From Hyphobacterium sp. CCMP332 (lineage in GTDB: Bacteria; Pseudomonadota; Alphaproteobacteria; Caulobacterales; Maricaulaceae), in the NCBI RefSeq assembly GCF_014323565.1, contig NZ_CP058669.1, positions 1,701,501-1,765,500 on the forward strand: DNA of 64,000 bases, in the 5' to 3' direction. Of the stretch, positions 17,892 to 36,775 are shown in pieces (position 1 is the first letter of the stretch; each line of letters opens with the position of its first letter). The position numbers were made by a program, and so were the translations under genes. A model generated the notes under the pieces. That model saw only the letters and a list, made by a program, of their open reading frames with translations. It ran no database searches and was not told the DNA's origin.

Positions 17892-17900
17892 AACGGTTTC

Positions 17901-19289
17901 CTATCCCTCTATGCCGCGCAGATCGGGAGCGTCGAAGCTTCCGCCGATTGCGAGGTAAATATCAACACGATTGGTGGCCCGCTCACGGCGGGCGGCGATG
18001 TACTGACCTTCTGACGCAAATCTACGACTCTGAGCGTCCAGCAGTTCAAAAACAGTGGCGAGGCCCGATCCGTATTGGCGGATCACGAGCTCTTCGGCGG
18101 CGGCGGCCTGTTCATAGGCATCGCGCAGCGCTTCCACGCGCGCGGCCAGAATGCCGTCGGCATAAATGGCATCTTCCGCTTCACGCCAGGCCGACAGAAC
18201 CGTCGTCGCATAAGCGGCCAGCTGGGCTTCCGCAGCTGCTTCGGCGCGGTCGCGTTCGGCGCGCAGGGCACCGCCATTGAAGATCGGTGACGTCAGCGAG
18301 CCGATGGCGGTCGCAATATAGGTGTCGATGTCGAAAATATCGGCCGGATCGGTCCCGCCCGTATCCAGCGTGCCGCGCAGCGTCAGGCTGGGCAGCAGAG
18401 CGTCCCGGGCAATTTCCGCCTGCAGGCCAACGGCCTGAAGCCGCGCTTCGGCGGCGCGCAAATCGGGACGGCGAACGAGCAACTCACCCGGCGCACCGAT
18501 CCCAGCCAGAGCGTCGAACTCCGGCAGATCGGCATTATGTTCAATCGCGCCCGCCGGATAACGACCGAGCAGGATTTCAAGACTGCGGGCGGCAGAGGCT
18601 TCCGCGCGTTGACGTGACGCCAGAACCGCCTGGCTCGACGCCAGAGCCGAGCGGAATGTCCGCACATCGGACGAGCGCGACACGCCAGCGCCAAAACGGC
18701 GTTCGATCAGGCCGAGCGAGCGCTCCTTGGCCTGCACATCGCGCTCGGCCAGATCTGTCTGAAGGCGCGCTTCAACCAGAAGGAACCAGGCGCGGGCGAC
18801 CTGTCCGGCCACCGACAGGCGGGCGCCATCATAGTCAGCATCCGTGGCCTGATATTCCAGAACGCCGGCTTGCGCACGGGCCGCCAGCCGGCCCCAGAGG
18901 TCCGCTTCCCACGATACGCCGATCCCGGCACCATAGCTGGTGGTGCTCGCCGGATCGGTTTCGCGCTGGGTGATACCCAGATCGGCATTGACGCTCGGCA
19001 AACGGCCGGCATTCGCTGCGCGGGCACTGGCGCGTGCCGCCCGGATGCGGGCTTCAGCGGATAAAATGCCGGGGTTTTCGACAACCGCTTCATCAATCAG
19101 AGCAGCCAGCCTGACATCGTTGAACGTCGCCACCCAGTTATCGATCCGGGTGGTATCGGCATCACCGCCAGACGCCCAGATCATGGGCGAGGAGGGCAGC
19201 GCATCGCCACCGCGCAGAGCCGGGCCCGTGGAAGCACAGGACGCCACAGCAAGGGCGGTAACGGAGAGGAGGAGGCTTTGTTTGATCAT
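17901..19289 (-). CDS. Outer membrane efflux lipoprotein (TolC/NodT family)
   Basis: 462-residue outer membrane factor. The start was chosen at the ATG giving MIKQSLLLSVTALAVASC, a signal peptide with lipobox VASC, as in the NodT branch of the TolC family. The protein has the two-fold repeat of long helices typical of these trimeric channels, including EADLWGRLAARAQAG in the first half and the Ala-rich region ending DIYLAIGGSFD at the C-terminus. It is the first gene of the efflux operon, which is less common than adaptor-first order. It supplies the outer membrane exit duct for the RND pump. Confidence 0.94.
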   Translation of the reverse strand: MIKQSLLLSVTALAVASCASTGPALRGGDALPSSPMIWASGGDADTTRIDNWVATFNDVRLAALIDEAVVENPGILSAEARIRAARASARAANAGRLPSVNADLGITQRETDPASTTSYGAGIGVSWEADLWGRLAARAQAGVLEYQATDADYDGARLSVAGQVARAWFLLVEARLQTDLAERDVQAKERSLGLIERRFGAGVSRSSDVRTFRSALASSQAVLASRQRAEASAARSLEILLGRYPAGAIEHNADLPEFDALAGIGAPGELLVRRPDLRAAEARLQAVGLQAEIARDALLPSLTLRGTLDTGGTDPADIFDIDTYIATAIGSLTSPIFNGGALRAERDRAEAAAEAQLAAYATTVLSAWREAEDAIYADGILAARVEALRDAYEQAAAAEELVIRQYGSGLATVFELLDAQSRRFASEGQYIAARRERATNRVDIYLAIGGSFDAPDLRGIEG

Positions 19290-19327
19290 ACTGGACTCTT
19301 GATGCCGGGGGCGGCGGATTTGGATGC

Positions 19328-19373
19328 ACCCTAGATTCAGCTTTTCGAAAGTCAACAAACTTTTATCGAAAAA
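19328..19373 (-). promoter_or_regulatory. Promoter with palindromic operator of the RND operon
   Basis: On the minus strand, TTGACT and TAGGGT, separated by 16 bases, resemble -35 and -10 boxes. The -35 lies inside a palindromic AT-rich element: TTTTCGA and TCGAAAA arms 17 bases apart, plus a local TTTCGAAA palindrome. Such geometry is typical of TetR/AcrR-type operators that repress efflux pumps. No regulator gene is adjacent. Inference from sequence only. Confidence 0.45.
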
Positions 19374-19534
19374 CAGTAATTTTTTAGCGATGATCATCAA
19401 AAAACTCTCGAATATCACTATGATAGTTGGTGATATCGGTGACGGCTCACGTCACGAGGATGTCCCAGAAGCGGTTGATTACCATCTGAATTATGGCCCT
19501 TATGAGTCGCAGAACAGCAGAAGGCGAATGAATT

Positions 19535-20923
19535 TTGAGCAAGGATTCCCCATCCGAGCTGGAGGGTCATCGCCTCCGGCGGCGCGATACACTCGCCCTG
19601 ACCGTGTTATCTGTCGCGGTCCTGCTCGTTCTGGCGATGTCCGGTGCGGTCACATTATGGGTCGCGCTCTCGGCTGCCATCGCCATCGGCGCCCTATCCT
19701 TTATCTATTTTCTTCTGATCACCACCGTGTCCGCTCCGCGCGCGCAAACGGCCTCGGCCAGTCCGAAAGCCATCGCCACAGGCACGGCGTCGCCGGCGCG
19801 CGAAATTCTTGAACAACTTCCCCTGCCCGTTCTGCTGGTCGGTCGCGGCGGCCGTATCGAACAGGCCAACCCGGCCGCGCATGAATTTCTGGGCCTCGGC
19901 AATGAATCTGGCCTGCTGTCGGCATCGCTACGCCAGCCCAAAGTGCTGGAAGCCGTCAGCGCCGTCTTGCAGGGCGACAAGGCGCGTATCGTCGAATATT
20001 CAACGCTAGCCCCCATAGAGAGCCATGTCCGTGTCCACGTCATGCCGCTGAAAGCCGAAGAACCCGGAAGTTATCCCTGGCGGGCGCTGCTGGTCCTGGC
20101 GGATGAAACCTCCAGCAAGCGCGCCGAACGCATGCGCGCCGACTTTCTGGCCAATGCCAGCCATGAATTGCGCACCCCCCTCGCCTCGCTTGCCGGCTTC
20201 ATCGAAACGCTGCGGGGCCATGCGCGGGACGATATGGCGGCGCGGGACAAATTCCTGTCCATCATGCAGGATCAGACCGAACGCATGCGGCGCCTGATCA
20301 ACGACCTCTTGTCACTGAGCCGCGTGGAAATGGACGAGCACGTACCGCCCAGCGGCGAAGCTGATTTCGCGGCCATGACGCAGAACACGATCGATTCTGT
20401 GCGTCCGCTGGCCCAGCCGAAAGATATCCGGATCGAGTTTGAAGGCGACCGGAATGCCCCGGTCATCGGCGAACGGGACCAGTTGTTCGAAATTGCCCAG
20501 AACCTGATCGAGAATGCGATCAAGTATTCCGCACCCGGTTCGCGAATCGTCTGCGATATTCACGCAGATATCGGCCGTGAAGACATTGACCGCCTGACCG
20601 GCAGTCTCGGCCCCGATGCCGGCCGCCTGACCATCGCCGCGCCGGGCCGCGCGGCTGGAATGCGGTTCGCGATGTTGCGGGTACGCGATGCCGGCAAGGG
20701 GATTGAACGCCGTCACCTGCCGCGTCTGTCCGAACGCTTCTATCGCGTGGATGGTCAAAAGAGCGGACCGAGAGAAGGCACGGGCCTGGGTCTCGCTATC
20801 GTCAAGCACATCGTCAGCCGGCATCGCGGAGGCTTCTTCGTCGAAAGCTTGCCTGGCGAAGGCAGCGTCTTCGCAGTCAGCATTCCGCGGCAAGTCGTGG
20901 AAGCGGTGCCCTCTGACACCTGA
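19535..20923 (+). CDS. phoR: Phosphate-regulon sensor histidine kinase
   Basis: 462-residue membrane kinase: two helices near the N-terminus (about 22-68), a PAS-like region (about 90-175), a HisKA domain with the phospho-accepting His in ASHELRTPLASLAGF, and an ATPase domain with N-box NLIENAIKY and G-boxes GTGLGLAIVKHI. It senses phosphate status through the Pst transporter and PhoU and phosphorylates PhoB. An in-frame stop lies directly before the TTG, so TTG is the earliest possible start; AAGG lies ten bases upstream. The gene heads a phoR-pstC-pstA-pstB-phoU-phoB cluster, the order described in Caulobacter, which supports the PhoR call. Confidence 0.92.
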   Translation: MSKDSPSELEGHRLRRRDTLALTVLSVAVLLVLAMSGAVTLWVALSAAIAIGALSFIYFLLITTVSAPRAQTASASPKAIATGTASPAREILEQLPLPVLLVGRGGRIEQANPAAHEFLGLGNESGLLSASLRQPKVLEAVSAVLQGDKARIVEYSTLAPIESHVRVHVMPLKAEEPGSYPWRALLVLADETSSKRAERMRADFLANASHELRTPLASLAGFIETLRGHARDDMAARDKFLSIMQDQTERMRRLINDLLSLSRVEMDEHVPPSGEADFAAMTQNTIDSVRPLAQPKDIRIEFEGDRNAPVIGERDQLFEIAQNLIENAIKYSAPGSRIVCDIHADIGREDIDRLTGSLGPDAGRLTIAAPGRAAGMRFAMLRVRDAGKGIERRHLPRLSERFYRVDGQKSGPREGTGLGLAIVKHIVSRHRGGFFVESLPGEGSVFAVSIPRQVVEAVPSDT

Positions 20924-20975
20924 CGGCCGTTATCAGCTGCAGACGAGAACCGTGTTTCCGGGCCGCCCTCGGGTG

Positions 20976-21006
20976 GCGTCATTAAACTGTTATGAAAATG
21001 ACATAA
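20976..21006 (+). promoter_or_regulatory. Pho-box repeats upstream of pstC
   Basis: Three related 7-mers spaced exactly 11 bases apart: GCGTCAT, CTGTTAT and ATGACAT, with A-rich spacers (TAAA, GAAA). PhoB binds direct CTGTCAT-like repeats at 11-bp periodicity. The site is about 85 bases before the pstC start and after phoR, so it should give phosphate-starvation control of pstCAB-phoU-phoB. Confidence 0.72.
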
Positions 21007-21089
21007 GCGCGCCGTGAACCGCCTGCTAGGGGTCGCGGAAGCTCTACTTTGGCAGCCTTGGCCGCATGACGTAAATCGACGGGACTTAA

Positions 21090-22691
21090 ATGCCGATCAA
21101 CGCCCTCATTCTGTTGATGATGCTCGTGCTCATCTCGGCGGCATTCTATGTCGGCCGGACGCGGGCCTTGCGGTCAGCCGGACGCGAAGCCATCAATCTG
21201 CATTCACTGCCAAATTACCATGGCTATTTCGTTGCGCTGTGGACCGGCACGCCGGCACTCCTACTGATGGCGGCGCTCGCCATGTTCGGGCCCAGCCTGA
21301 CCGAAACCGTTGTTGAATCGCGCCTCAATCAGGCTGCCGCACCGCTTATCCAGGACTTCGAAACGCGTCAGGAAAACGATTCGCTGATCGCGTCCGCGCG
21401 GCGCACGCTGGAGGCATCGGACAATGTAAACGCCGCGACCGAAGCCCGCGCCACACTTCAGAGCCGGCGGACCGCGATTGCGGCCGAGATCACGGCATCT
21501 GCCCGGCAGAACAGCGCATCGCCTCTGTCGCTCGCCGGTTTCGAATATGCCAATCTGCCGCCCGAACGCCGGGGTCTTTTCATCAACGACGCCCGCGCGC
21601 TCGCCTTTGACAGCCAGCCCAGCGAAATCACGCCCGCCATTGAAGCTACCGCTTCGGCTTTCCGCCCGGTCGATCAGGCGATTCGATATGGCGGAGCGGT
21701 TCTGGCCATTCTTCTGGCGCTGGCCGGACTGGTGTGGTCGCGATCGCGAGTGAAAGCCGGCTTCCGCGCCCGCAACCGGGTCGAGAGTGCCTTCATGGGC
21801 TTCCTGATGCTGTGTTCCGGAATCGCCATCCTGACCACAATTGGCATCGTTGCCTCGCTATTGTTTGAATCGCTGCGCTTCTTTGAAGCCATCAACTGGC
21901 GGCTGGACCAATTCCTGTTCGGGACGCAGTGGAGCCCGCAGACCGCCATCCGCGCAGAGCAGATAGGGCAGACGGGCGCCTTCGGCGCGGTGCCGCTATT
22001 TGCCGGCACCTTCATGATCACCATCATCGCCATTCTGGTGGCCGGGCCGATCGGCCTCTTTGCCGCCATCTACCTGTCGGAATATGCCGGCAAGCGCACC
22101 CGCAACATCGTAAAACCAGTCATGGAAATTCTGGCCGGTATTCCGACGGTGGTGTATGGCTTTTTTGCCCTCCTGACTGTCGGCCCGGCCATCCGGGCGG
22201 CGGCCCAGTTTGTGGGCTTTGAAAGCGCCGTCACCCAGTCTGCCCTGTCCGCCGGACTGGTCATGGGCGTGATGATCATCCCCTTTGTGTCCTCCCTGTC
22301 CGACGATGTGATCAACGCCGTGCCGCAAACCCTGCGCGACGGTGCCTATGCGATGGGCGCGACCAAATCGGAAACCGTCAAACAGGTCATCCTGCCCGCC
22401 GCCCTTCCGGGCATTGTCGGCGCCTTCCTGCTGGCGATCAGCCGCGCGGTCGGCGAAACCATGATCGTCGTCATGGCCGCCGGTCAGGGGGCCAATCTGA
22501 CGGCCAACCCGCTGGAATCCGTGACCACCATCACCGTGCAGATCGTCATGCTGCTGACCGGCGACCAGGAATTCGACAGTGCCAAGACATTGTCCGCCTT
22601 CGCCCTCGGCCTTGTACTTTTCATCTTCACGCTGGCGCTGAACGTGATCGCGCTGCGCGTCGTGCAGAGATATCGGGAAAAATATGATTGA
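21090..22691 (+). CDS. pstC: Phosphate ABC transporter permease PstC, long form
   Basis: 533-residue permease, much longer than the roughly 310 residues of E. coli PstC. The C-terminal half has the six-helix MetI-like domain with the coupling motif TLRDGAYAMGATKSETVKQV. The N-terminal half adds further membrane helices and a helical extracytoplasmic region (about 65-195), as in the DUF3708-type extension of alphaproteobacterial PstC. It pairs with PstA to form the high-affinity phosphate channel and feeds phosphate status to PhoR. Its end overlaps pstA by eight bases. No pstS (phosphate-binding protein) is in the cluster. Confidence 0.95.
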   Translation: MPINALILLMMLVLISAAFYVGRTRALRSAGREAINLHSLPNYHGYFVALWTGTPALLLMAALAMFGPSLTETVVESRLNQAAAPLIQDFETRQENDSLIASARRTLEASDNVNAATEARATLQSRRTAIAAEITASARQNSASPLSLAGFEYANLPPERRGLFINDARALAFDSQPSEITPAIEATASAFRPVDQAIRYGGAVLAILLALAGLVWSRSRVKAGFRARNRVESAFMGFLMLCSGIAILTTIGIVASLLFESLRFFEAINWRLDQFLFGTQWSPQTAIRAEQIGQTGAFGAVPLFAGTFMITIIAILVAGPIGLFAAIYLSEYAGKRTRNIVKPVMEILAGIPTVVYGFFALLTVGPAIRAAAQFVGFESAVTQSALSAGLVMGVMIIPFVSSLSDDVINAVPQTLRDGAYAMGATKSETVKQVILPAALPGIVGAFLLAISRAVGETMIVVMAAGQGANLTANPLESVTTITVQIVMLLTGDQEFDSAKTLSAFALGLVLFIFTLALNVIALRVVQRYREKYD

Positions 22692-24420
22692 TCGCACCGA
22701 TATTCAGGCCGCTGTTCAGGCCCGCCTCGCCAAGCGCTATCGCGCCGAAGGCCGGTTCCGCATGTTCGGCATTCTGGCCATCATGTCGGCCATCGCCGTC
22801 CTGATCCTGCTGATCGGCTCCATCGCCAGCCAGTCGATTCCGGCGTTTCGCGTCCACGAGCTGACCCTGCCGGTAACGCTGGAGGGTTCCCGGGTCGATC
22901 CTGCCGGTGATCGCAGCGAAGCCTCGCTCCGCCGGGGACCATATAACAGCCTGTTGCAGGAAGCCCTGCGCGCCGAATTCCCGCATATCCAGGAGCGCGA
23001 CGAACTGCGCGAACTCTTCGGCCTCTATACGCCGCTCAATTCGGCCCGGCTCCAGAACCATGTGCTGGATAATACGGATCTGGTCGGCCAGACCATCGAC
23101 TTCACCTTTCCGATTTCCGACGATGCCGACCTCTATCTTCAGGGGCTGACCACGACCTCCAGCGAGGCCGCACCCGGCCTCGTCGCGACTCCGTCCGGCA
23201 GAACCGGCGATATCAGTATTTTCGCGAATGCCAATGTGTTCTCGCCGATTGTTGCGGATATTCGCGCCCAGCTGACAAGCGAGGCCGAAGAGCTGGAAGA
23301 CCGGGCCGCACGATATGAAGCACGCGCAGCAAACTCGTCCGGGGACGAGGCCGCCGCAAGCCTGACGCGCGAGGCCGAACAGGCCCGGACCCAGGCCGCC
23401 AGCCGCCGCGAACTGGCCGCACCGGGCGGCGACGGCATCAATATGTCACCGGATTTGCCCAGCCGTCTCGTCCGCATGAATGGGGGCATCATCCAGATCG
23501 ACCGGATCAGTGATGGCGGCCGCACCGCCGAAGGCCGCGTCCTCGTGGCGCTGGACAGCACGGAGGCCGGCAGTGAATGGACCATCTGGACGCTGGACGT
23601 ACCGCAGGCCGAACGCCGCATCACCGACGCACAGATCGCATGGGCCGAAACCCTGCTGGCGCGCGGCCGCGTGGTTCAGGGCTTCAACACCTATCTCTTC
23701 ACCAATGCCGATAGCCGCGAACCGGAACTGGCGGGCGTGCTGGGTGCTGTCATCGGCTCGGGTCTGACCATGCTGGTCACAATGCTTCTGGCCGTCCCCA
23801 TCGGCGTGGCGACTGCAGTCTATCTGGAAGAATTTGCGCCCAAGAACCGCATCACCGGCTTCATCGAGGTCAATATCAACAACCTCGCCGCCGTCCCCTC
23901 CATCGTCTTCGGCCTGTTGGGACTGGCGGTGTTCATCAGCCTCTTCGGCCTGCCGCGATCCGCCCCGCTGGTCGGCGGCATGGTGCTGGCCCTGATGACC
24001 TTGCCGACCGTGATCATCTCCTCGCGCGCCGCCCTGAAAGCCGTGCCGCCTTCCATCCGGGAAGCCGCGCTCGGCGTGGGCGCATCGCGCCTGCAGACGG
24101 TCGTACACCACGTTCTGCCGCTGGCCGCGCCGGGTATTCTGACCGGATCGATTATCGGGTTGGCGCAGGCCATGGGCGAAACCGCGCCGCTATTGATGAT
24201 CGGCATGGTCGCCTTTGTCGCCGACACGCCCAGCCTCTCGGCCGCCGGACTGACCGAGCCGGCGACGGTCATGCCGGTCCAGATTTTCTTGTGGTCCGAC
24301 GGTGCCGAGCGCGCTTTCGAACCCCGCACGGCCGCCGCCATTCTGGTGCTGCTGGCCCTGATGATTGTGTTTAATGCGGTCGCGGTCCTGCTGCGCCGCC
24401 GGTTCGAGCGGAGATGGTAG
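22684..24420 (+). CDS. pstA: Phosphate ABC transporter permease PstA, long form
   Basis: 578-residue permease. After the first helix (about 27-50) comes a long periplasmic insert (about 60-350), the DUF3333-type region found in alphaproteobacterial PstA, containing a charged Glu/Arg/Ala coiled coil around residues 198-245. The MetI-like transmembrane domain occupies the C-terminal 230 residues, with [17 protein letters not shown] as the ATPase-coupling motif. E. coli PstA is about 296 residues, so the insert nearly doubles the protein. It overlaps pstC and directly precedes pstB. Confidence 0.95.
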
Positions 24421-24422
24421 GT

Positions 24423-25235
24423 ATGGCGGATTCCGGTAGCCGGACCTCAACGGTTTATCACGACATTGCCAGGAGCATTAAGGGCAAGATTACCCTTGAT
24501 GGCGTGAATGTCTTCTATGGCCCCAAACAGGCCATTTATGACGTCTCCATGGAAATTGCCGATCGCTCGGTGACCGCCTTCATCGGCCCGTCCGGCTGTG
24601 GCAAATCCACCATTCTGCGCACCATCAACCGTATGAATGAAACGATCGATATTGCCCGCACGGATGGCTCCATCCGCATTGATGGCGAAGAGATCAATTC
24701 CAAGGCCGTAGATCCGGTCATCCTGCGTGCCCGCGTCGGCATGGTGTTCCAGAAACCCAACCCGTTTCCGAAATCCATCTTCGACAACGTCGCCTATGGC
24801 CCGCGCATTCACGGTCTCGCCTCGTCCAAGAGCGAGCTTGCCGATGTCGTCGAGACCAGCCTGCGCAAGGCCGGCCTGTGGGACGAGGTCGCCGACCGTC
24901 TCGACCAGCCCGGCACCGGCCTCTCCGGCGGTCAGCAACAGCGCCTCGTGATTGCCCGCGCCATTGCCGTCAGCCCGGAAGTCATCCTCATGGATGAACC
25001 CTGCTCCGCACTCGACCCGATCGCCACCGCCAAGATCGAGGAGCTGATCGACGAGCTGCGCGAGAATTACTGTATCGTCATCGTCACCCACTCCATGGCG
25101 CAGGCCGCGCGTGTTTCGCAAATGACCGCCTTCTTCCACATGGGCGATCTGGTCGAATACGGCCCCACAGAAGAGATTTTCACCAATCCACACGAACCCC
25201 GGACACAGGACTACATCACCGGACGTTTCGGCTAG
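24423..25235 (+). CDS. pstB: Phosphate ABC transporter ATP-binding protein
   Basis: 270-residue ATPase with Walker [11 protein letters not shown]-loop [12 protein letters not shown], signature [16 protein letters not shown] and Walker [10 protein letters not shown], all diagnostic of PstB (the FQKPNPFP and DEPCSALDP motifs in particular). It powers phosphate import by PstC-PstA and takes part in signalling through PhoU. The start is placed at the ATG nine bases after GGAG; an earlier ATG overlapping the pstA stop is too close to that site. Confidence 0.97.
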
Positions 25236-25255
25236 GCCACTGAAAGAGCAAAGCC

Positions 25256-25957
25256 ATGAATAGCCAACTCCCCTCCCACACGGTTCGCGCCTATTCCGAC
25301 GAACTCAACGCGCTGTCCGATGAAATCGCGCGCATGGGTGGCCTGTGCGAAAGCCAGGTGACCGATTGCATCGCCGCCGTCATGCGCCGCGATCCGGAAT
25401 TGGCGAAACAGGTGGCCGAGAGCGACCACCGGGTCGATGAGCTGGAAACCGCCACGGAAAAGCGCGTCATCCGCATGCTCGCCCTGCGCCAGCCCATGGC
25501 GTCTGACTTGCGCGCCACCATCGCCGCCTACCGGATTTCCGGCGATCTCGAGCGCATCGGTGATCTCGCCAAGAATATCGCCCGCCGGACCCACGAACTG
25601 AACAAGTCCGAACCGCTGGAGCTGACCCGCAGCGTCGAGCGCATGGGCAAGATGGTCGTCAGCAATCTGCACCGCGTGCTGGATGCCTTCTCAGCCGGTT
25701 CGGCAGAGGAAGCCGTTGCCGTCTGCCGCTCCGACGAGGAAGTCGACGAGCATTATAACAGCCTGTTCCGCGAGCTCCTCTCCTTCATGATTGAGGATCC
25801 GCGCACCATTACGGCCAGCGCTCACCTGTTGTTCGTGGCCAAGAATCTCGAACGCATTGGCGATCACACCACCAATATCGCCGAAATGATTCACTACCTC
25901 GTCACCGGCGCGGAACTGCGCCGTGATATCCGCCGCGACTCCAACGACGCGGCCTGA
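25256..25957 (+). CDS. phoU: Phosphate signalling protein PhoU
   Basis: 233-residue all-helical protein made of two three-helix bundles, with the repeated metal-binding type motif seen as SGDLERIGDLAKNIARR and KNLERIGDHTTNIAEM. PhoU connects the Pst transporter with PhoR and keeps PhoB inactive when phosphate is plentiful. It lies 20 bases after pstB and 14 bases before phoB, in the same operon. Confidence 0.97.
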   Translation: MNSQLPSHTVRAYSDELNALSDEIARMGGLCESQVTDCIAAVMRRDPELAKQVAESDHRVDELETATEKRVIRMLALRQPMASDLRATIAAYRISGDLERIGDLAKNIARRTHELNKSEPLELTRSVERMGKMVVSNLHRVLDAFSAGSAEEAVAVCRSDEEVDEHYNSLFRELLSFMIEDPRTITASAHLLFVAKNLERIGDHTTNIAEMIHYLVTGAELRRDIRRDSNDAA

Positions 25958-25971
25958 GCCCGGAGATCAAG

Positions 25972-26663
25972 ATGGACCCGCATATTCTGGTCGTTGAAGA
26001 CGAGGACGCGCTGGCGACCTTGCTTCAGTACAATCTGGAAAAGGAAGGCTATCCGCGTATCCGTGGTGGCCGGCGACGGCGAGGAGGGGCTGGTGCTCAG
26101 ATCGACGAGCGCCTGCCCGATCTGGTGCTGCTGGACTGGATGCTGCCCAAGGTGTCGGGCATCGAGGTGTGTCGGCGCATCCGCGGCCGGCCGGAAACCC
26201 GCAATGTGCCGATCATCATGCTGACGGCGCGCGGCGAGGAAGCCGACCGGATTCGCGGTCTGGACACCGGCGCCGACGACTATCTGACCAAGCCCTTCTC
26301 GATGACCGAGCTGATCGCCCGCATCCGGGCGGTGCTGCGCCGCATCCGTCCCGGTCTGGCCGACGACCGGATCAACCACGGCGACATCGTCATCGACCGG
26401 GTGGCCCACCGGTGCGCCGGGCGGGCAAGGAAATCCACCTCGGCCCGACCGAATTCCGCCTGCTGGACCACTTCATGCAGCACCCGGGGCGGGTGTTCAG
26501 CCGCGAGCAGCTACTGGACGCGGTTTGGGGCTCGGACGTCTATGTCGAGGCGCGCACGGTCGATGTGCACGTCGGCCGCCTGCGCAAGGCCCTGAACGTT
26601 GAAGGGACCGCCAATCCCATCCGCACGGTGCGCTCGGCGGGATATTCGCTGGACGCGAAATAG
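25972..26663 (+). pseudogene. phoB: Response regulator PhoB, reading frame broken by three indels
   Basis: The product would be the OmpR-type regulator of the Pho regulon: receiver domain (VVEDEDALA, phospho-acceptor Asp in VLLDWMLPK, TARGEEADR, YLTKPFS) and winged-helix DNA-binding domain (EIHLGPTEFRLLDH, TVDVHVGRLRKALN). These parts are in different frames. The frame moves after the codon ending at 26052 (apparently an extra C at 26053), returns near 26095-26100, and shifts again near 26412 (apparently a missing G after CCACCGG). As read, the protein has a scrambled stretch in the receiver and no DNA-binding domain. Valine codons are mostly GTG here (12 of 22), whereas phoU uses mostly GTC. 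It could be a true pseudogene or an assembly error. Confidence 0.88.
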
Positions 26664-26666
26664 CCC

Positions 26667-27182
26667 CTAGAAATTCACGCGCCGTGTGGCTTGCAGCGCG
26701 TCCAGAGCGGCTTGCGCGTCGGAGACTTTCCGCTTGCGCTTCTGCTGCGGCTGGTAGGCGATCTGGGCGTGGGCCTCGCAATAGGCATCCCCGGCTTTCG
26801 TGCGGTGGCCGCAGAAACGGAAATCACCGCTGGCCGGATCACCGATGGGCCATTTGCACATCGAATCCTTCAGCGTCAGCACGGTGGCGAATTCACCATT
26901 CGGCAGGCGCTCCGGCGCAGGCGCTTCAATCGCCGGCTCCATGACCTTGCGCGTAACGGGCGCTTTCGCCTTCACCGGTGTGACGACGCGCGGCTTGGGC
27001 GTACGCGCCGGACGGCTGGACGGGCGCGACGGTGCGGCGCGGCCGGACAGGCCGAGACGGTGCACCTTGCCGATGACGGCATTGCGGGTGACGCCGCCAA
27101 TCTTCTTGGCGATCTGGCTAGCGGAAAGGCCTTCGGCCCACAGCTTCTTCAATTCTTCAACGCGATCGTCAGTCCAGGCCAT
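26667..27182 (-). CDS. gcrA: Cell-cycle regulator GcrA
   Basis: 171-residue protein with the GcrA N-terminal helix-turn-helix (MAWTDDRVEELKKLW, then SASQIAKKIGGVTRNAVIG), a basic Pro/Arg-rich linker and a C-terminal Cys-rich domain (CKWPIG, FCGHRTKAG, YCEAHA). GcrA binds sigma-70 holoenzyme and activates promoters carrying methylated GANTC sites, coupling transcription to CcrM methylation and replication. The ATG is preceded by GGAG six bases upstream. It converges on phoB with only three bases between stop codons. Its presence is a strong marker of an alphaproteobacterium. Confidence 0.96.
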   Translation of the reverse strand: MAWTDDRVEELKKLWAEGLSASQIAKKIGGVTRNAVIGKVHRLGLSGRAAPSRPSSRPARTPKPRVVTPVKAKAPVTRKVMEPAIEAPAPERLPNGEFATVLTLKDSMCKWPIGDPASGDFRFCGHRTKAGDAYCEAHAQIAYQPQQKRKRKVSDAQAALDALQATRRVNF

Positions 27183-27306
27183 TTTTCGCTCCACCAGCTT
27201 TGCGGTGATACTATGGGCGGTAGCCCCGCCTTCGTCATCCGCAATATGTTGTGTCTTGTCCGAGATACAGTATCCAGAACGCCCCGCACCACAAGATGCG
27301 CTCGCT

Positions 27307-27330
27307 GATTCGCCTGTGGAAAGCTGATTC
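27307..27330. promoter_or_regulatory. Pair of GANTC methylation sites between gcrA and the ABC-2 permease
   Basis: Two GATTC pentamers start 19 bases apart in the divergent intergenic region, about 125-150 bases before gcrA. GANTC is the CcrM methylation target, and GcrA-dependent promoters usually carry one. They could sense hemimethylation for either gene. Confidence 0.4.
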
Positions 27331-27393
27331 GGATGCAGTTGACCGCCATCATCCGGCTCGCCCGAAAGCCCGGTGCGTGCTAGTTGGCTGGCT

Positions 27394-28209
27394 ATGACAG
27401 AGACTCACACCACCCGCCCCGCTCCCGTGCCGCGCCGCTTCGGAGCGCTCAACACGCTTGGCCTGTGGACGCTCTACCGCAAGGAAGTCCACCGCTTCGG
27501 CAAGGTGATCATCCAGACCGTATTTGCACCGGTCGTGACCACATTGCTGTTTTTCGCAGTGATCAATCTGGCCTTCGGCGAGCGCCGCGGCGATGTGGCG
27601 GGTATTCCGTTTTCCGATTTTCTGGCCCCCGGCCTCATCCTGATGGGACTGTTGCAGAACGCCTTTGCCAATTCCTCGTCCTCCATTCTGGTGTCGAAGG
27701 TGCAGGGCAATTCGGTGGATTTCCTGATGCCGCCCCTGTCCGCGCTGGAGCTGATGATTGCCTTCATCGCCGGCGCGGTGACGCGCGGCGTGGTCGTGGC
27801 CGCGGCCACGGGTATCGTCATGGCCTTCTTCGTCGATCTGACGCCCGCGCACATCTGGGCGATCGTCTTCTACGCCATCACCGGTGCATCGCTCCTGGGC
27901 ATGGTCGGGCTGATCGGCGGCGTCTGGGCGGAGAAGTTTGACCACATCGCGGTGATCACCAACTTCATCATCACGCCACTGACCTTCCTCTCGGGCACCT
28001 TCTATTCCATCGAGGTCCTGCCCGAGCCGTTTTACACGCTCAGCCACATCAATCCCTTCTTCTACATGATTGACGGCTTCCGCTATGGCTTCACCGGGCA
28101 TGCCGACGGCAGCATTCTGGCAGGCGTACTGATCATACTGGCGCTGAATGCCATCCTGATCGCAATCTCCTATCTGGTATTGCGCTCCGGCTGGCGCTTG
28201 AAGAGTTAG
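27394..28209 (+). CDS. ABC-2 type transporter permease
   Basis: 271-residue permease with six hydrophobic helices. The region FLAPGLILMGLLQNAFANS and the late NPFFYMIDGFRYGFTG are typical of the ABC-2 membrane family (YadH/NodJ type), which exports polysaccharides, lipids or drugs with a separate ATPase. No ATPase gene lies next to it, which is unusual. The ATG giving MTETHTTRPAP was chosen; an upstream GTG seven codons earlier is possible. Confidence 0.88.
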   Translation: MTETHTTRPAPVPRRFGALNTLGLWTLYRKEVHRFGKVIIQTVFAPVVTTLLFFAVINLAFGERRGDVAGIPFSDFLAPGLILMGLLQNAFANSSSSILVSKVQGNSVDFLMPPLSALELMIAFIAGAVTRGVVVAAATGIVMAFFVDLTPAHIWAIVFYAITGASLLGMVGLIGGVWAEKFDHIAVITNFIITPLTFLSGTFYSIEVLPEPFYTLSHINPFFYMIDGFRYGFTGHADGSILAGVLIILALNAILIAISYLVLRSGWRLKS

Positions 28210-28266
28210 CGAGACAGGCCTAGACGGCTTCTGGAATAACACCACACATTCAAGGGAGATCACTTC

Positions 28267-29448
28267 ATGCCTGCACCGCTTATGGACACCTATGCGCCGC
28301 CGGATCTTGTTTTCGAGCGCGGAGAAGGCGTCCGCCTCTATACGGCTGAAGGAAAATCCTGGCTCGACTTCATTTCCGGCATTGCGGTCAACGCGCTGGG
28401 TCACCACCATCCCAAAGCCGTCGCCGCTCTGAAAGAGCAGGCCGACAAGCTCTGGCATCTCTCCAACATGTTCCAGGTGCCGGGCCAGATCGAACTGGCG
28501 AAGAAATACACGGACGCCACCTTTGCCGACCGCGTCTTCTTCACCAATTCCGGGACCGAGGCCATCGAATGCGCGCTGAAGACGGCGCGCCGCTATTTCT
28601 ACGACAAGGGCGAGCCGCATCGCTATCGCATCATCACCTTCACCGGCGCCTTTCACGGGCGCACCTATGGTGCCATCAATGCTGGCGGCAACCCCGCCTA
28701 TCTCGAAGGCTTCGGCCCCCGGATGGAAGGCTTTGATCAGGTGCCGTTTGGCGATCATGACGCGCTGAAAGCGGCTATCACCGAGGAAACCGCCGCCATT
28801 CTGGTCGAGCCGGTCCAGGGTGAAGGCGGCGTTCGCGCCATTCCCGAACATTGCCTGCGCGGCCTGCGCGAGATGTGCAACGAGCACGGCCTCCTCCTGA
28901 TGTATGATGAAGTCCAGTGCGGCGCAGGGCGCACCGGCAAGCTGTTCGCGCATGAATGGGCCGGCGAGGCCCGGCCTGACATCATGGCTGTGGCCAAGGG
29001 CGTTGGCGGCGGCTTCCCGATGGGCGCCTGCCTGACCACCGAAGAGGTCGGCAAGGGCATGGTCGTCGGCACCCACGGATCGACCTTTGGCGGCAATCCG
29101 CTGGCCATGGCGGTCGGCAATGTCGTTTTTGACGAACTCACCGCGCCGGGCTTCCTGGATAACGTCAACAAGGTCTCCAACTTCATGCACCAGCAGCTGA
29201 CCGGCCTCGCCGATCGCCATTCCGGCGTCGTGACCGAAGTGCGCGGCAAGGGCTTGCTGATGGGTCTGAAACTCGTTGACGGCGTCGTCGCCAAGCAATT
29301 TGCCGGCATGGTCCGCGATCGCGGCCTGTTGATCGGGGCTGCGGGCGACAATGTCGTGCGCATGGCACCGCCGCTGGTGATTGACGAAGCCGATGCCAGC
29401 GAAGCCATCGGCATCCTGGATGACACGCTGAGCGACGTGGCAAAGTAG
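28267..29448 (+). CDS. argD: Acetylornithine / succinyldiaminopimelate aminotransferase
   Basis: 393-residue class III PLP aminotransferase. The PLP-binding Lys is in IMAVAKGVGGGFPMGA, with the phosphate-binding TNSGTEAIECALKTAR and the Asp of LLLMYDEVQCGAGRTGK. ArgD makes N-acetylornithine in arginine synthesis and commonly doubles as DapC in lysine synthesis, which fits the presence of dapD and dapE in this window. It starts behind AAGGGAGA. hslO follows after five bases; the argF gene usually found between them in many Alphaproteobacteria is absent. Confidence 0.93.
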   Translation: MPAPLMDTYAPPDLVFERGEGVRLYTAEGKSWLDFISGIAVNALGHHHPKAVAALKEQADKLWHLSNMFQVPGQIELAKKYTDATFADRVFFTNSGTEAIECALKTARRYFYDKGEPHRYRIITFTGAFHGRTYGAINAGGNPAYLEGFGPRMEGFDQVPFGDHDALKAAITEETAAILVEPVQGEGGVRAIPEHCLRGLREMCNEHGLLLMYDEVQCGAGRTGKLFAHEWAGEARPDIMAVAKGVGGGFPMGACLTTEEVGKGMVVGTHGSTFGGNPLAMAVGNVVFDELTAPGFLDNVNKVSNFMHQQLTGLADRHSGVVTEVRGKGLLMGLKLVDGVVAKQFAGMVRDRGLLIGAAGDNVVRMAPPLVIDEADASEAIGILDDTLSDVAK

Positions 29449-29453
29449 GCCTC

Positions 29454-30353
29454 ATGTCGGATCCACTGGGTGAAGCAGACGATCTGGTGGCCGCCTTTCA
29501 GGTCGACGGTCACGCGGCGCGTGGCCGCATCGTCCGCATGGGCGCGGCGCTGGACGACATCGTGTCGGCCCATGATCATCCCCCGGCGGTAAAACGTCTG
29601 GTCGGCGAAGCCGTGCTGCTGGCGGCCCTTGTCGGTGACTCGCTCAAATTCGACGGCCGTCTGATCGTCCAGGCCAATGGCAATGGGCCGGTGAATTTCG
29701 TTGTCGCCGAGTGGAATTCCGGCGGAGCCGTGCGCGGCTTCGCCCAGTATTCCGGCGAGCCGGTCAGCGATGATGCCGGCGTGGCGCAATTGCTCGGCAC
29801 CGGCTCTTTTGCGATGACGATTGATCCGGGCGGCGAGATGGAACGCTATCAGGGCGTCGTGGCGCTGGAAGGCGACCGGTTGAGCCATTGCGCCGAGCGT
29901 TATTTCGAGCAATCGGAACAGACCCCGACCCGCATCAGACTGGCCGTTGGCGAGAACGTCCAGACCGGCGGAAAGTCGAACTGGCGCGGCGGCGGTGCCA
30001 TCCTCCAGCAGATTGCCGGCGATGAGGCGCGCGGCGATGCCTCTGCCGACTGGGACCATTGCCGGGCCCTGTTTGAAACCATCGCCGATGACGAGCTGAT
30101 CGACCCGGATATTTCAGCGGCAACGCTGATCTACCGCCTCTTCCATGAAGACGGCGCCCGTCTGTTCGAACCGCGCACGCTGACCAGGCACTGCCCGTGC
30201 AATCGCGAACGGCTGGTGGAAATCCTCGCCCGCTTTTCCGAAGACGAGCAGGCGGAGATGGAAAAGGACGGCAAGATCGGCATGACCTGCGAATACTGCA
30301 ATCGGCTGTTTGAATTCACGCCGGAAGATATCGACACCGCCAAGGCCTCATGA
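29454..30353 (+). CDS. hslO: Redox-regulated chaperone Hsp33
   Basis: 299-residue chaperone activated by oxidation. The C-terminal zinc centre is CPC (in HCPCNRERL) and CEYC (in MTCEYCNRLF), the expected CxC plus CxxC pair about 30 residues apart. Under oxidative stress these cysteines release zinc, and the protein becomes an ATP-independent holdase in the cytoplasm. It is cotranscribed with argD and overlaps the end of the convergent trkH by six bases. Confidence 0.96.
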   Translation: MSDPLGEADDLVAAFQVDGHAARGRIVRMGAALDDIVSAHDHPPAVKRLVGEAVLLAALVGDSLKFDGRLIVQANGNGPVNFVVAEWNSGGAVRGFAQYSGEPVSDDAGVAQLLGTGSFAMTIDPGGEMERYQGVVALEGDRLSHCAERYFEQSEQTPTRIRLAVGENVQTGGKSNWRGGGAILQQIAGDEARGDASADWDHCRALFETIADDELIDPDISAATLIYRLFHEDGARLFEPRTLTRHCPCNRERLVEILARFSEDEQAEMEKDGKIGMTCEYCNRLFEFTPEDIDTAKAS

Positions 30354-31805
30354 CTGCCAGAAGCGCGGCGTAAACAGGATCAGCACGGTCAGGACCTCCA
30401 GCCGGCCAATCAGCATATTCGCGGACATCACCCATTTGGCGGCATCCGGCAAAGGCTGGAAAGTGCCCGAAGGACCGATGATGTCGCCCAGCCCCGGACC
30501 GACATTGGCCAGCGTCGCCGCCGCCCCCGACAGCGCTGTAGTCGTATCCAGACCGATTGCCCCGAGTATCGCCGCTGACAGCGTGAAAATGGCGATGAAG
30601 GCAAACAGGAAGCCCAGCACGGAATAGACCGTTTCCGGCGACACCGGGCGCCCGCCATAGCGCAGCGGCGTGATGGCGCGCGGATGTGCGAGCGAGACGA
30701 CATGCTGGCGGATCGCCAGTATCGCGATCTGATAGCGGAAAATCTTGACCGAACACGTCGTCGATCCGGCACACCCCCCGGCAAACATCAGGACGAAAAA
30801 GGCCGCCGTTGCCGGCGCGCCCCAGACCCCGAAATCGGCCGTCGCATAGCCTGTGCCCGTGATCACCGAAATCGTGTTGAAGGCGGCGGCGCGTATGCCC
30901 GCTTCGGGGGCATAGAGGTCGGCGGCAACGACAAAGACCGACATCGCCACAATGGCCGCGACGACCAGCGTGAAAAAACCCTGAACCTGCGGGTCGCGCC
31001 ACAGGGCCGCCGGGTGTCCCCGCACCAGCATCAGATAGGCGGCGAATGGCAGGGCCGCCATCAGCATGAAGACCATGGCGACATAATCCGCGCCGCCCTC
31101 GGTAAAGGCGCCCATGGATGCATCGCGGGTGGAATATCCGCCGGTGGCCACCGTCGTCATGGCATGGGCCATGGCATCAAATCCGTTCATGCCGGTGGCG
31201 GCATAGGCCATGGCGCAGATCAGCGTCAGTGCCAGATAGATAAGCGATATCGCGGTCGCAATCTCGGCGGCGCGCGGCAGAACCTTTTCCGACGACGAAT
31301 CCGACGATTCCAGACGGAAGAGCTGCATACCGCCCACGCCCAGCATCGGCCAGATCGCCATCGCCGTGACGATGATTCCGATGCCGCCAATCCATTGCAG
31401 GATGGCGCGCCACATCAGGAAACCCGGAGGCCGCGCATCCAGCCCCGTCACCACGGTCGCGCCGGTCGTGGTCAGCCCGGAAATCGCCTCGAACAGAGCA
31501 TCGGTCCAGCCCAGCTCATGGCCGCCGAACCGCATCGGCAAGGCCGCAAAAATCGCCAGCACCAGCCACGACCCCGCCGTCACCAGAAACGCCGAACGGG
31601 TGGTCAGATTGCGGTCTTCGGTGCGAACGCCAAGCGCCACGGCCATGCCCAGAAATCCGCCCACAGCAGACGACCAGAAAAACGCCGACGCGCTGTCCAT
31701 CGCGCCCGCATTCATATCCATGAAGGCCGGAATCAGCATGGCCAGGGAAATACTGGCGACCATGATGCCCAGAACGAAGAGGACGGTTCGGACCGATGCG
31801 CTCAT
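30348..31805 (-). CDS. trkH: Potassium uptake protein, TrkH family
   Basis: 485-residue membrane protein with four repeated M1-P-M2 units of the Trk/Ktr/HKT superfamily. The selectivity-filter-like loops include SGLTTTGATVVTGLD, TTVATGGYSTRD, ITGTGYATADFG and the last near ANVGPGLG. It forms the membrane pore for K+ uptake with the NAD-binding TrkA protein, which is not encoded here. The gene lies between hslO and apaG, neighbours that are adjacent in many Alphaproteobacteria. Confidence 0.94.
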   Translation of the reverse strand: MSASVRTVLFVLGIMVASISLAMLIPAFMDMNAGAMDSASAFFWSSAVGGFLGMAVALGVRTEDRNLTTRSAFLVTAGSWLVLAIFAALPMRFGGHELGWTDALFEAISGLTTTGATVVTGLDARPPGFLMWRAILQWIGGIGIIVTAMAIWPMLGVGGMQLFRLESSDSSSEKVLPRAAEIATAISLIYLALTLICAMAYAATGMNGFDAMAHAMTTVATGGYSTRDASMGAFTEGGADYVAMVFMLMAALPFAAYLMLVRGHPAALWRDPQVQGFFTLVVAAIVAMSVFVVAADLYAPEAGIRAAAFNTISVITGTGYATADFGVWGAPATAAFFVLMFAGGCAGSTTCSVKIFRYQIAILAIRQHVVSLAHPRAITPLRYGGRPVSPETVYSVLGFLFAFIAIFTLSAAILGAIGLDTTTALSGAAATLANVGPGLGDIIGPSGTFQPLPDAAKWVMSANMLIGRLEVLTVLILFTPRFWQS

Positions 31806-31823
31806 CAGATGTTATCCAGCCAG

Positions 31824-32240
31824 TTAATGGACCGACGTCCGGTCATAGGGGCTGTCGAGCGAAAAGGCCGGTATCACCGCGTCAAACCGACTGCCCGACG
31901 CCAGCGACATTTCAAAACTGCCGCGCATGAAACCCGACGGCGTCTTCAGCGGCGAGCCGGATGTGTAGGAATAGCGCTGACCGGGCTCCAGCACAGGCTG
32001 TTCGCCGACCACGCCCGGACCGCGCACGGTCTCGATCTTGCCGGTTCCGTCCGTCACCAGCCAGTAACGGGAGACAAGCTGCACCGTTTCATCACCCCTG
32101 TTTTCGATCTCGATCGTATAGGCCCACATATAGAGCTGGCGATCCGGGTCGGACTGGTCGTCCAGAAATTCCGGCGTCACCCGCACGGCAACCCCGCGGG
32201 TTTCGCATTCATAACGGGCGATTTCATGTGTCTTGACCAT
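31824..32240 (-). CDS. apaG: ApaG domain protein
   Basis: 138-residue beta-sandwich protein of the ApaG/DUF525 family. Family motifs are WAYTIEIENRGDETVQLVSR, YWLVTDGTGKIETVRGPGVV and SGSPLKTPSGFMRGSFEM. ApaG is linked to Co2+/Mg2+ resistance in enterobacteria, although its molecular role is unclear. The ATG giving MVKTHEIARYEC matches the normal family length of 125-140. It lies 18 bases upstream of trkH on the same strand. Confidence 0.95.
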   Translation of the reverse strand: MVKTHEIARYECETRGVAVRVTPEFLDDQSDPDRQLYMWAYTIEIENRGDETVQLVSRYWLVTDGTGKIETVRGPGVVGEQPVLEPGQRYSYTSGSPLKTPSGFMRGSFEMSLASGSRFDAVIPAFSLDSPYDRTSVH

Positions 32241-32342
32241 GCCGGGATGATCCCCTCGAATGCCGGAGGCTTCAAGTCCCGCATTCTGCTCTTTCTCGCA
32301 AGCGCATAATCCCGTAACCAAGGAACCGACTCTTTTACGGTA

Positions 32343-33368
32343 ATGGACGCCCTCATGAGCATTGCAGGCATTCTGCCCGATACCGAAATCACCGACCTGG
32401 CAGCCCGCGGTGCCATCAACTGCGACCTGCCCTTCGTCGACACCCAGGTCCAGCCCGCCAGCCTCGATCTTCGCCTCGGCCATACCGCCTATCGTCTGCG
32501 CGCCAGCTTTCTTCCGGGCCGGAGCCGGACGGTGCAGGACGTGCTCGGCAGCGGGCTCGTCATGCACGAGCTGGATCTGACCGGCGGAGCCGTGCTGGAA
32601 ACCGGATGCGTCTATCTCGTACCGCTGATGGAGACACTCGCGCTCAACGGCGATGTCAGCGCTGCGATGAACCCGAAGAGCTCGACCGGCCGGATCGATG
32701 TCTTCACGCGCGTCATCGCCGATCAGGCCACAACCTTCGACCATGCCCCCGCCGGATATACCGGACCGCTCTATGTCGAGATTTCGCCGCGCACCTTCTC
32801 CATTCTCGCCCGGCCGGGTGACCGTCTGGTGCAGGCGCGCTTCCGGCGCGGCCTGCGGCAGGCCACCCGCGAAATCACCGTCTCGGTGGATCTCGAAGGG
32901 TTTGACGGCAAGGTCGGCTATCGCGCCCGGCGCCATTCCGGCCTGATTGATCTGGCAAAGATCGGCCAGCACGATCCACGCGATTTCTGGGAAGAGATTG
33001 ATGTGCGCCAGGGCCGCATGATCCTCGATCCGGGTGAATTCTACATCCTCGCCTCACGCGAACCGGTCATCATTCCGCTGGATGAAGCCGCCGAAATGGC
33101 CCCCATCGCGCCTGAGATTGGCGAGTTCCGCGCCCATTATGCCGGCTTCTTTGATCCCGGCTTTGGCGTCGCAGAGGCCGGCGGCACAGGTGGCCGCGCC
33201 GTGCTGGAAGTCCGGGGCCGCGACGTGCCCTTCTTCCTCGAACACAGCCAGGCCGCCGCCCGTCTGGTCTATGAGCCGATGGCCGCCCGCCCGGCCCGGC
33301 CCTATGGCATGCAGGGCTCGAACTATCAGGCCCAGAAGCTGAAACTGGCGAAATATTTTTCCGGCTAG
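32343..33368 (+). CDS. dcd: 2'-deoxycytidine 5'-triphosphate deaminase, long form
   Basis: 341-residue protein of the alphaproteobacterial long-form DCD family, nearly twice the length of E. coli Dcd (193 residues). The dCTP deaminase/dUTPase signature is visible in AAMNPKSSTGRIDVFTRVI, and a second related half follows in which EISPRTFSILARPGDRLVQ is typical. It should convert dCTP to dUTP for thymidylate synthesis. A second ATG four codons in (MSIAGILPD) is an alternative start. The gene diverges from apaG and precedes tRNA-Gly. Confidence 0.87.
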   Translation: MDALMSIAGILPDTEITDLAARGAINCDLPFVDTQVQPASLDLRLGHTAYRLRASFLPGRSRTVQDVLGSGLVMHELDLTGGAVLETGCVYLVPLMETLALNGDVSAAMNPKSSTGRIDVFTRVIADQATTFDHAPAGYTGPLYVEISPRTFSILARPGDRLVQARFRRGLRQATREITVSVDLEGFDGKVGYRARRHSGLIDLAKIGQHDPRDFWEEIDVRQGRMILDPGEFYILASREPVIIPLDEAAEMAPIAPEIGEFRAHYAGFFDPGFGVAEAGGTGGRAVLEVRGRDVPFFLEHSQAAARLVYEPMAARPARPYGMQGSNYQAQKLKLAKYFSG

Positions 33369-33418
33369 GGAAAGGCGCTTGCGTACCCGGCGCACGCCGA
33401 CTTAAATTCCGCCACGAT

Positions 33419-33492
33419 GCGGGTGTAGCTCAATGGCAGAGCAGAAGCTTCCCAAGCTTACGACGAGGGTTCGATTCCCTTCACCCGCTCCA
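33419..33492 (+). tRNA. tRNA-Gly (anticodon CCC)
   Basis: 74 bases folding as a full cloverleaf: acceptor GCGGGTG paired with CACCCGC, D arm GCTC/GAGC, anticodon loop TTCCCAA giving CCC, T arm with GGTTCGATTCC, discriminator T and encoded CCA. The 27-43 pair is a G-A mismatch. Confidence 0.96.
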
Positions 33493-33605
33493 GCCATTCC
33501 TCAGCTTTGAAGCTATTAGATTTTCCACCGGGTGGAGAGGTTCTCTGATAGGCTCGTCCCGCACGAACCTCGGTCGCCGAGGTCCGACAGGCTCGGAGGG
33601 CCATC

Positions 33606-34586
33606 ATGAAATCGCTTCTATCCATCGCTATCCTGGCATCTGGTCTTGGCAGCGCTGCGGCGCTTGCGGACTCACCTCTGACGGACGCGTTCTCCGACTA
33701 TCTCGGCGCTTGCTGGGCCAATCATCAGGACGGCCAACCGGCACCCGAAGTCTATTGCTTCGAGCGTCTGGAGAGTGATTTCGTCCGCATCGTCCGTCAG
33801 AATCCGGGCCCGCATGGCATGTTCTACAATGAAGAACACCTGTTCTGGGATGCTCAGGCCGAACGCATTCTGTCGGCCATGTACACGTCCGGCGGTCATG
33901 TGATCGAGAACGATGGTGCAATCGAAAATGGTCAAGCCACGCTGTTCGCGTATCGCGAGTCCGGCGAGATGAATCTGCGTATGCATTGGGGCGCGGTGAC
34001 AGGCGATTTCGCCAGCTTCATCCGCGAACAATATCTCGGCGAGGATTATGGCGGCTGGAATACCGAGGCCGAACGTGTGTTCACTCGCCAGCCCGCCACC
34101 ACAGGCGAGGAGCTGGCCGCTGAAATGTCGGGCGATGCCATATTTGGTGAAGCGATTGAGGCCTTTGGCCCATTGATGGGGGCCTGCTGGTCGGCATCCT
34201 TCGACGACTCGGCGGCCGTCGATACGCACTGCTTTACCGATCTGCTCGGCCGGTATGTCAGGGACCGCCATATTGTTCCCGGCAACCCGGACTATTCCGG
34301 CGAAACCGTTTTTCACTATAACCGGGAATTGGACGGACTCGTCTTTCGCTATGTGAACTCCATCGGTGGCCGGTCGATCGGCTCTGCTACAATTTCGAAC
34401 AATGGAATTGAATTTGGCGAGGAAACCTACACATCCCCGGACGGCGAGGAACAGACCTTCCGCGGGCGCTATTATGACATGTCAGATGCTGGCTATTCCA
34501 GCCAGACAGAACAACTTGTCGATGGCGAATGGGTCGTCGTCTCCGAACAGCGTTTCACCCGCGCCGGTGGACCGAACGCAGAATAA
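33606..34586 (+). CDS. Secreted protein with internal duplication, unknown function
   Basis: 326-residue exported protein with a signal peptide (MKSLLSIAILASG... ending ALA before DS). Two related halves of about 140 residues follow. Matching elements in order are LGACW and MGACW, VYCFERL and THCFTDL, FYNEEHLFWD and FHYNRELDGL, GGHVIENDGAIENG and GGRSIGSATISNNG, and the ends ERVFTR and EQRFTR. Each half keeps two Cys residues, which could form a disulfide in the periplasm. No known domain was recognised. It stands alone between two tRNA genes. Confidence 0.72.
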   Translation: MKSLLSIAILASGLGSAAALADSPLTDAFSDYLGACWANHQDGQPAPEVYCFERLESDFVRIVRQNPGPHGMFYNEEHLFWDAQAERILSAMYTSGGHVIENDGAIENGQATLFAYRESGEMNLRMHWGAVTGDFASFIREQYLGEDYGGWNTEAERVFTRQPATTGEELAAEMSGDAIFGEAIEAFGPLMGACWSASFDDSAAVDTHCFTDLLGRYVRDRHIVPGNPDYSGETVFHYNRELDGLVFRYVNSIGGRSIGSATISNNGIEFGEETYTSPDGEEQTFRGRYYDMSDAGYSSQTEQLVDGEWVVVSEQRFTRAGGPNAE

Positions 34587-34750
34587 CGCCCGCTTCGCGG
34601 CCCGAGGATGCAAATATCAGGTGACTCATGCACAAGGATATCAAACCCGCCCACACCCCAGCTCTGAGCGCGCTTAATGCGAGCACCGGCGTATTGCAAA
34701 CTTCGATGACGAAAGCCGCGCCGGGCGGAGCGGAAGCAACAAGGAAAGAA

Positions 34751-34827
34751 TGGCGCACCGGGGAAGATTCGAACTCCCGACCCCCAGATTCGTAGTCTGG
34801 TGCTCTATCCAACTGAGCTACCGGTGC
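34751..34827 (-). tRNA. tRNA-Arg (anticodon ACG)
   Basis: 77 bases on the minus strand: acceptor GCACCGG paired with CCGGTGC, D arm GCTC/GAGC, anticodon stem CCAGA/TCTGG with loop CTACGAA (ACG, probably deaminated to ICG), T arm GGGAG/CTTCC with TTCGAAT loop, discriminator G and encoded CCA. Confidence 0.97.
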
Positions 34828-34903
34828 AGACCGACCGGGACAGCTATCCAGCCCCCGGGAAGGCGCGGAAACTAGCCGCGCGATTTTGTAATAGCAAGAG
34901 CCC

Positions 34904-36763: not shown

Positions 36764-36775
36764 ATCGGGGTCTGC

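Follow-up and report, generated by a model that had tools for sequence, protein, structure and literature searches.

PhoB, the phosphate-starvation master regulator, belongs to the OmpR/PhoB regulators, in which a receiver part is joined to a DNA-binding part (NCBIfam TIGR02154). A second kind of system that resembles the locus described here is residual or mis-polished error in long-read assemblies, where frame-breaking indels occur at places to which short reads map ambiguously; short-read alignment is described as unreliable in repeats, with errors persisting there (Polypolish, PMC8812927), and errors that fragment genes are described (Kastor, PMC12007338). The phoB gene deposited for Hyphobacterium sp. 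CCMP332 resembles both. Like described PhoB proteins, it is matched end to end in its receiver and DNA-binding parts and lies beside phoU, but it does so in more than one frame, with each piece scoring below the family cut-off. It also closely resembles the phoB copies of g21, a Caulobacteraceae genus, although the deposited copy differs from these in its indels and in its terminal codons, which are of the Hyphobacterium type. Unlike the long-read errors described for repeats, ambiguity here would stem from conserved genes common to the species of one culture, and phoB bears a nearly complete foreign tract.

The analysis is based on the deposited consensus sequence, which was compared with relatives, and on the published assembly methods. 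The window, i.e., the whole 64,000-nucleotide stretch that was analysed, corresponds to positions 1701501-1765500 (G000:C1:1701501-1765500) of a genome that consists of one contig of 2,690,927 bp. This record (CP058669, contig 298 of its project) derives from DNA of a non-axenic diatom culture and was assembled from MinION reads with Flye and Racon, followed by three Pilon rounds in which BWA-MEM served to map the Illumina reads; the same paper lists, in its Table 1, 99.63% of bases as Illumina-confirmed, a BUSCO score of 94.6% and 56 pseudogenes, and the raw reads are deposited under PRJNA628076 (PMC7661000). The confirmed fraction implies that about 10 kb are unconfirmed. Mixed source DNA and a consensus built from long and short reads, the setting in which a consensus artefact would be expected, are thus both documented in the methods (PMC7661000). 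The paper gives two genome sizes (2,691,501 in the abstract; 2,690,927 in Table 1) and 103 tRNAs, compared with 6 found by ARAGORN in the 664 kb surveyed here, and it reports that a second genome was mislabelled at NCBI (PMC7661000).

The gene order at the locus is phoR, pstC, pstA, pstB, phoU and phoB, all on the forward strand, followed by gcrA on the opposite strand. phoR (19535..20923) is an open frame whose best match, TIGR02966, scores 283.6 bits and stays below the cut-off of 334.2; pstC (21090..22691; TIGR02138), pstA (22684..24420; TIGR00974), pstB (24414..25235; TIGR00972) and phoU (25256..25957; TIGR02135) are intact, with scores above their cut-offs. phoU, the left flank of phoB, is of the Hyphobacterium type, as is the right flank, gcrA (26667..27194, reverse strand), an open frame that matches NF050816 with 208.6 bits (cut-off 280). 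An initial reading made from the sequence alone (hereafter the sequence-only reading) had described the Pho locus apart from phoB as intact, and this holds: the frames are open, their families are matched with phoR alone below its cut-off, and comparison with H. indicum showed no frame breaks in the other Pho genes. phoB adjoins the pst-phoU genes and has phoR at the same locus, which is the genomic context of a genuine PhoB. The same reading had placed a Pho box at this locus. Two overlapping matches on the forward strand (20976..21004), each with 3 mismatches to the motif that we take to be the Pho box, do precede pstC, but they are weak, and the 4 matches in the window, two of them in this gap, are at chance level (3.59 expected).

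The phoB gene (25972..26663, forward strand; 1,727,472-1,728,163 in genome coordinates) is chimeric and frame-broken as deposited. Reading from the ATG at 25972, the frame shifts near 26053, is regained near 26096 and is lost again after 26411; the open reading frame stops at 26595 (207 aa), while the DNA-binding domain runs on to 26663 in another frame and is therefore lost in translation. The positions of the three frameshifts proposed by the sequence-only reading were right, as was the loss of this domain. Relative to 30 aligned g21 phoB copies (loci L118-L147, out of the 131 genomes with a match), the deposited sequence has 4 extra bases at 26054..26057, which cause the first break, 2 extra bases at 26095..26096, where the frame is regained, and 1 base fewer at 26411..26412, which puts the DNA-binding domain out of frame. 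Each of the three indels is absent from 30/30 of these copies and also from 7 other aligned sequences. The suggestion that the indels lie in short C or G runs applies to the third alone, where a single base is missing from a short G run; the other two each insert several bases. Two pieces in different frames match TIGR02154: the first scores 202.6 bits and covers profile positions 1-145, the second scores 130.5 bits and covers 146-226. Together they span profile 1-226, and neither alone reaches the cut-off of 296.2 bits, so the deposited gene encodes no single, full-length member of the family. g21 copies of phoB from three genomes (G037, G041 and G057) are open and free of stops. The search for a second intact phoB that had been proposed, using the receiver and the DNA-binding domain, found no other copy; after phoB itself, the best receiver match in the genome reaches 48% identity.

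Comparison with relatives gave most of this gene a different ancestry from its neighbors. At the DNA level phoB shares 93.9% identity with G093 and G135 (674 aligned positions), the closest among the 131 g21 genomes in the search, each of which gave a match, and 80.5% with H. indicum; the DNA-binding part is 98.8% identical in amino acids to that of G037 (genus g21, family f3) and 82% identical to that of H. indicum. Protein identities to H. indicum 2ED5 (L038) are 91.4% for PhoU, 91.9% for GcrA, 91-92% for PstB and 84% for PhoR. (In another relative, G007, the phoB locus L013 has a run of N near the 3′ end, which makes its lower C-terminal identity uninformative.) Followed in 100-base steps, identity to G093 ranges from 52 to 75% across phoU and from 83 to 98% across phoB. 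The positions at which the window differs from G093 and from H. indicum delimit a Caulobacteraceae-like tract at 25996..26641 (forward strand), whose left edge falls within 25996-26009 and whose right edge falls within 26639-26642; phoB begins and ends with codons of the Hyphobacterium type. The tract occupies nearly all of the DNA that can be aligned between the two species (positions 11-683 of 692) and includes no flank. As far as the deposited sequence goes, phoB is a chimera with a g21-type middle and genus-type ends, and a foreign tract between genus-type flanks is what would be expected of an artefact and of an allelic replacement alike.

Phylogeny and codon usage agree with this ancestry. 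In a tree of 26101-26640, built from 48 sequences that we selected among the available loci, the window phoB falls within g21 (support 100/99), which in turn lies in a wider clade with named Caulobacter and Phenylobacterium (support 99/98); in a PhoU tree (40 sequences, quick method), the window PhoU groups with Hyphobacterium. When 20 kb around the gene (17001-37000) were compared with three g21 genomes, matches longer than 300 bases were 65-72% identical, a merged pstB-phoU-phoB piece being excluded; shorter matches were higher; two of them (89-96%) coincide with the genes for tRNA-Gly and tRNA-Arg, and the rest are mostly small fragments of phoB or of conserved genes. The valine codon GTG makes up 10/19 in phoB (read in frame by pieces, with the segment between the first two indels omitted), 4/24 in H. 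indicum phoB, 15/24 in the phoB of G093 and 4/15 in the window phoU, so the valine codons of phoB are consistent with a g21 source. The difference in valine usage between phoB and phoU, noted from the sequence alone as a hint of a different recent history, is thus confirmed in kind, and so is the different history itself: most of phoB is Caulobacteraceae-like between Hyphobacterium flanks. The 34 aligned substitutions relative to G093, the nearest g21 copy, fall at 29 third, 5 first and 0 second codon positions, which implies that selection acted on this allele up to a very recent time; the relaxed selection expected of a pseudogene is not seen, although a very recent loss would leave no trace yet.

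Frame breaks of this kind are rare in most of the genome that was surveyed. Over 664 kb that include the window, 532 genes could be compared with H. indicum; 14 of them lay in more than one frame, and of these only phoB and groEL were judged to contain internal breaks. Four of the flagged genes that were inspected (gcrA, o_408916, o_199415 and o_529841) proved to be start extensions or antisense-like frames; the other eight, which had a low-identity or short piece, were set aside uninspected, so a few single breaks may have been missed. Within the window, where 53 frames were compared with colinear H. indicum DNA, two were flagged, phoB convincingly and gcrA as an upstream extension. The background of the method, estimated by searching frames of the window's genome against H. 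indicum DNA, was 4/205 and 4/443. Earlier gene choices (2/53, 7/196 and 11/423 flagged) were replaced when antisense frames were seen to have entered them, and counting gaps on DNA alignments was dropped for its excessive noise. With 14/532 genes flagged and two judged to be internal breaks, random error across the assembly is ruled out for most of the sample.

Outside the window, several genes that a growing cell cannot do without are broken in the same record. groEL, present as a sole copy (G000:C1:1638824-1640423), is in 4 pieces, where 6/6 relatives searched have one whole copy; over about nt 375-750 it leaves genus-type sequence. A search for a donor of this stretch in 385 genomes of the class (353 matched) yielded no clear source, the best segments being 81% identical, and a g21 origin is not supported. 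rpoC, also a sole copy, gives 3 family matches and lies in 4 pieces. Of the two tuf copies, one is whole, whereas the other is split into 4 pieces and contains 2 TGA codons; in six adjacent bins of 75 columns (about nt 300-750) this broken copy is 2-7 points closer to g21 than its intact twin, and the remaining 11 bins comprise 5 that are farther from g21, 4 that are equal and 2, both end bins, that are closer. A 16 kb block (G000:C1:1247259-1263530; L268) that carries genes for translation and transcription, namely tuf, fusA, rpsL, rpoC, rpoB, rplL, rplJ, rplA, rplK, nusG and secE, is riddled with frame-breaking indels, mostly single-base losses. Indels were found in 10 of the 11 genes compared (all those from fusA to secE in this list); the eleventh, which we take to be rpsG, is free of breaks, as are the presumed rplB, rplC and rplD just outside the block, dnaK and one tuf copy. 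All 20 indels in fusA, rpoB and rpoC are losses, 16 of them of one base, and no g21-like stretch was seen in rpoB-rpoC, where the sequence is of the genus type; the damage in rpoB, rpoC and fusA has the appearance of long-read error left uncorrected. Both insertions and losses occur in phoB, groEL and the broken tuf, and multi-base changes are seen in groEL and tuf too. Growth is impossible when RNA polymerase beta-prime or GroEL is missing; since rpoC and groEL are broken, the record must contain false frameshifts. The breaks in groEL, rpoC, rpoB and tuf are what an assembly artefact predicts, namely damage to genes that cannot be lost.

The genus-type ends of phoB, its g21-type middle, the indels found in no other aligned copy and the broken essential genes together point to an artefact, and the break in phoB probably arose as a consensus error when DNA of the mixed culture was assembled. 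A Caulobacteraceae bacterium present in the culture would have contributed reads to the pile-up where phoB is conserved, either during long-read correction or during the three rounds of short-read polishing; these foreign reads may then have shifted the consensus to their own allele, with mis-joined bases left behind as the indels. Reads of other culture members may have entered the consensus of groEL and of the broken tuf as well. The foreign tract, too, probably derives from mixed reads. Against mixing stand several observations. A read mapper is hard pressed to polish across 20% divergence; rpoB and rpoC lack a g21 stretch, groEL lacks a clear donor, several conserved genes are unbroken, and the tuf bins outside the six are mostly not closer to g21. 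In addition, a Caulobacteraceae partner is undocumented in the available part of the diatom genome paper, in which Caulobacter and Brevundimonas have 0 occurrences; 1,974 scaffolds had been removed from the metagenome assembly of the culture (PMC7466962).

The strongest alternative is that the cell holds a real g21-type phoB, acquired by homologous exchange within the gene, with the frameshifts as sequencing errors and PhoB functional. The tract has clean, sharp edges in conserved stretches at both gene ends and is itself clean except for the indels; the 94% DNA identity to G093 and G135, the firm placement within g21, the bias of the differences toward third positions and the absence of breaks in the other Pho genes would all suit such a replacement. 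However, a tract supported by the organism's own reads should have been polished clean like its neighbors, two of the three phoB indels are multi-base insertions as opposed to the losses seen in fusA, rpoB and rpoC, and exchange of nearly a whole gene at about 80% identity is unusual, so that a real replacement seems unlikely, if still worth entertaining.

That phoB is really broken, with a recent loss of PhoB and retention of phoR, pst and phoU, appears very improbable. The breaks are present in the deposited sequence, no second copy was found in the genome, and a phosphate-rich culture would make the loss tolerable. However, with rpoC, rpoB and groEL broken in the same record a frameshift there is weak evidence, and the substitutions relative to the donor clade still bear the signature of purifying selection; decay would call for frame breaks that assembly errors do not explain, and here essential genes are broken too. 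Of the two origins offered by the sequence-only reading, sequencing error is thus favored by the broken essential genes and recent decay is opposed by the codon positions of the substitutions, and its suggestion that the strain would have lost PhoB control is unwarranted. Programmed ribosomal frameshifting that would yield PhoB despite the breaks, an idea which the recovery of the frame past the second indel might suggest, can be dismissed as scarcely credible, as more than one shift would be needed and none of the 30 aligned g21 copies has any of these indels.

Whether phoB was miscalled by mixing of reads or is a real foreign allele, it is very probably not lost from the cell; most likely, given the consensus error favored here, the living bacterium has a single intact phoB and normal PhoR-PhoB control. 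In the less probable case, a Hyphobacterium in a diatom community might have swapped about 640 bp of phoB for the allele of a Caulobacteraceae neighbor; the master regulator would then have been exchanged between families over nearly the length of its gene, at an identity of about 80%, with the first and last phoB codons, phoU and gcrA of the Hyphobacterium retained. The foreign tract and the wider pattern of broken genes, both absent from the sequence-only reading, are beyond sight from a single window. CP058669 is a single-contig genome rated 99.63% complete, yet it contains false frameshifts, and its rpoB-rpoC-fusA region, one tuf, groEL and phoB are unfit for claims on gene loss, transfer or phylogeny before the reads are rechecked. 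In genomes from non-axenic cultures, conserved genes may hold sequence of other species that mimics decay or transfer.
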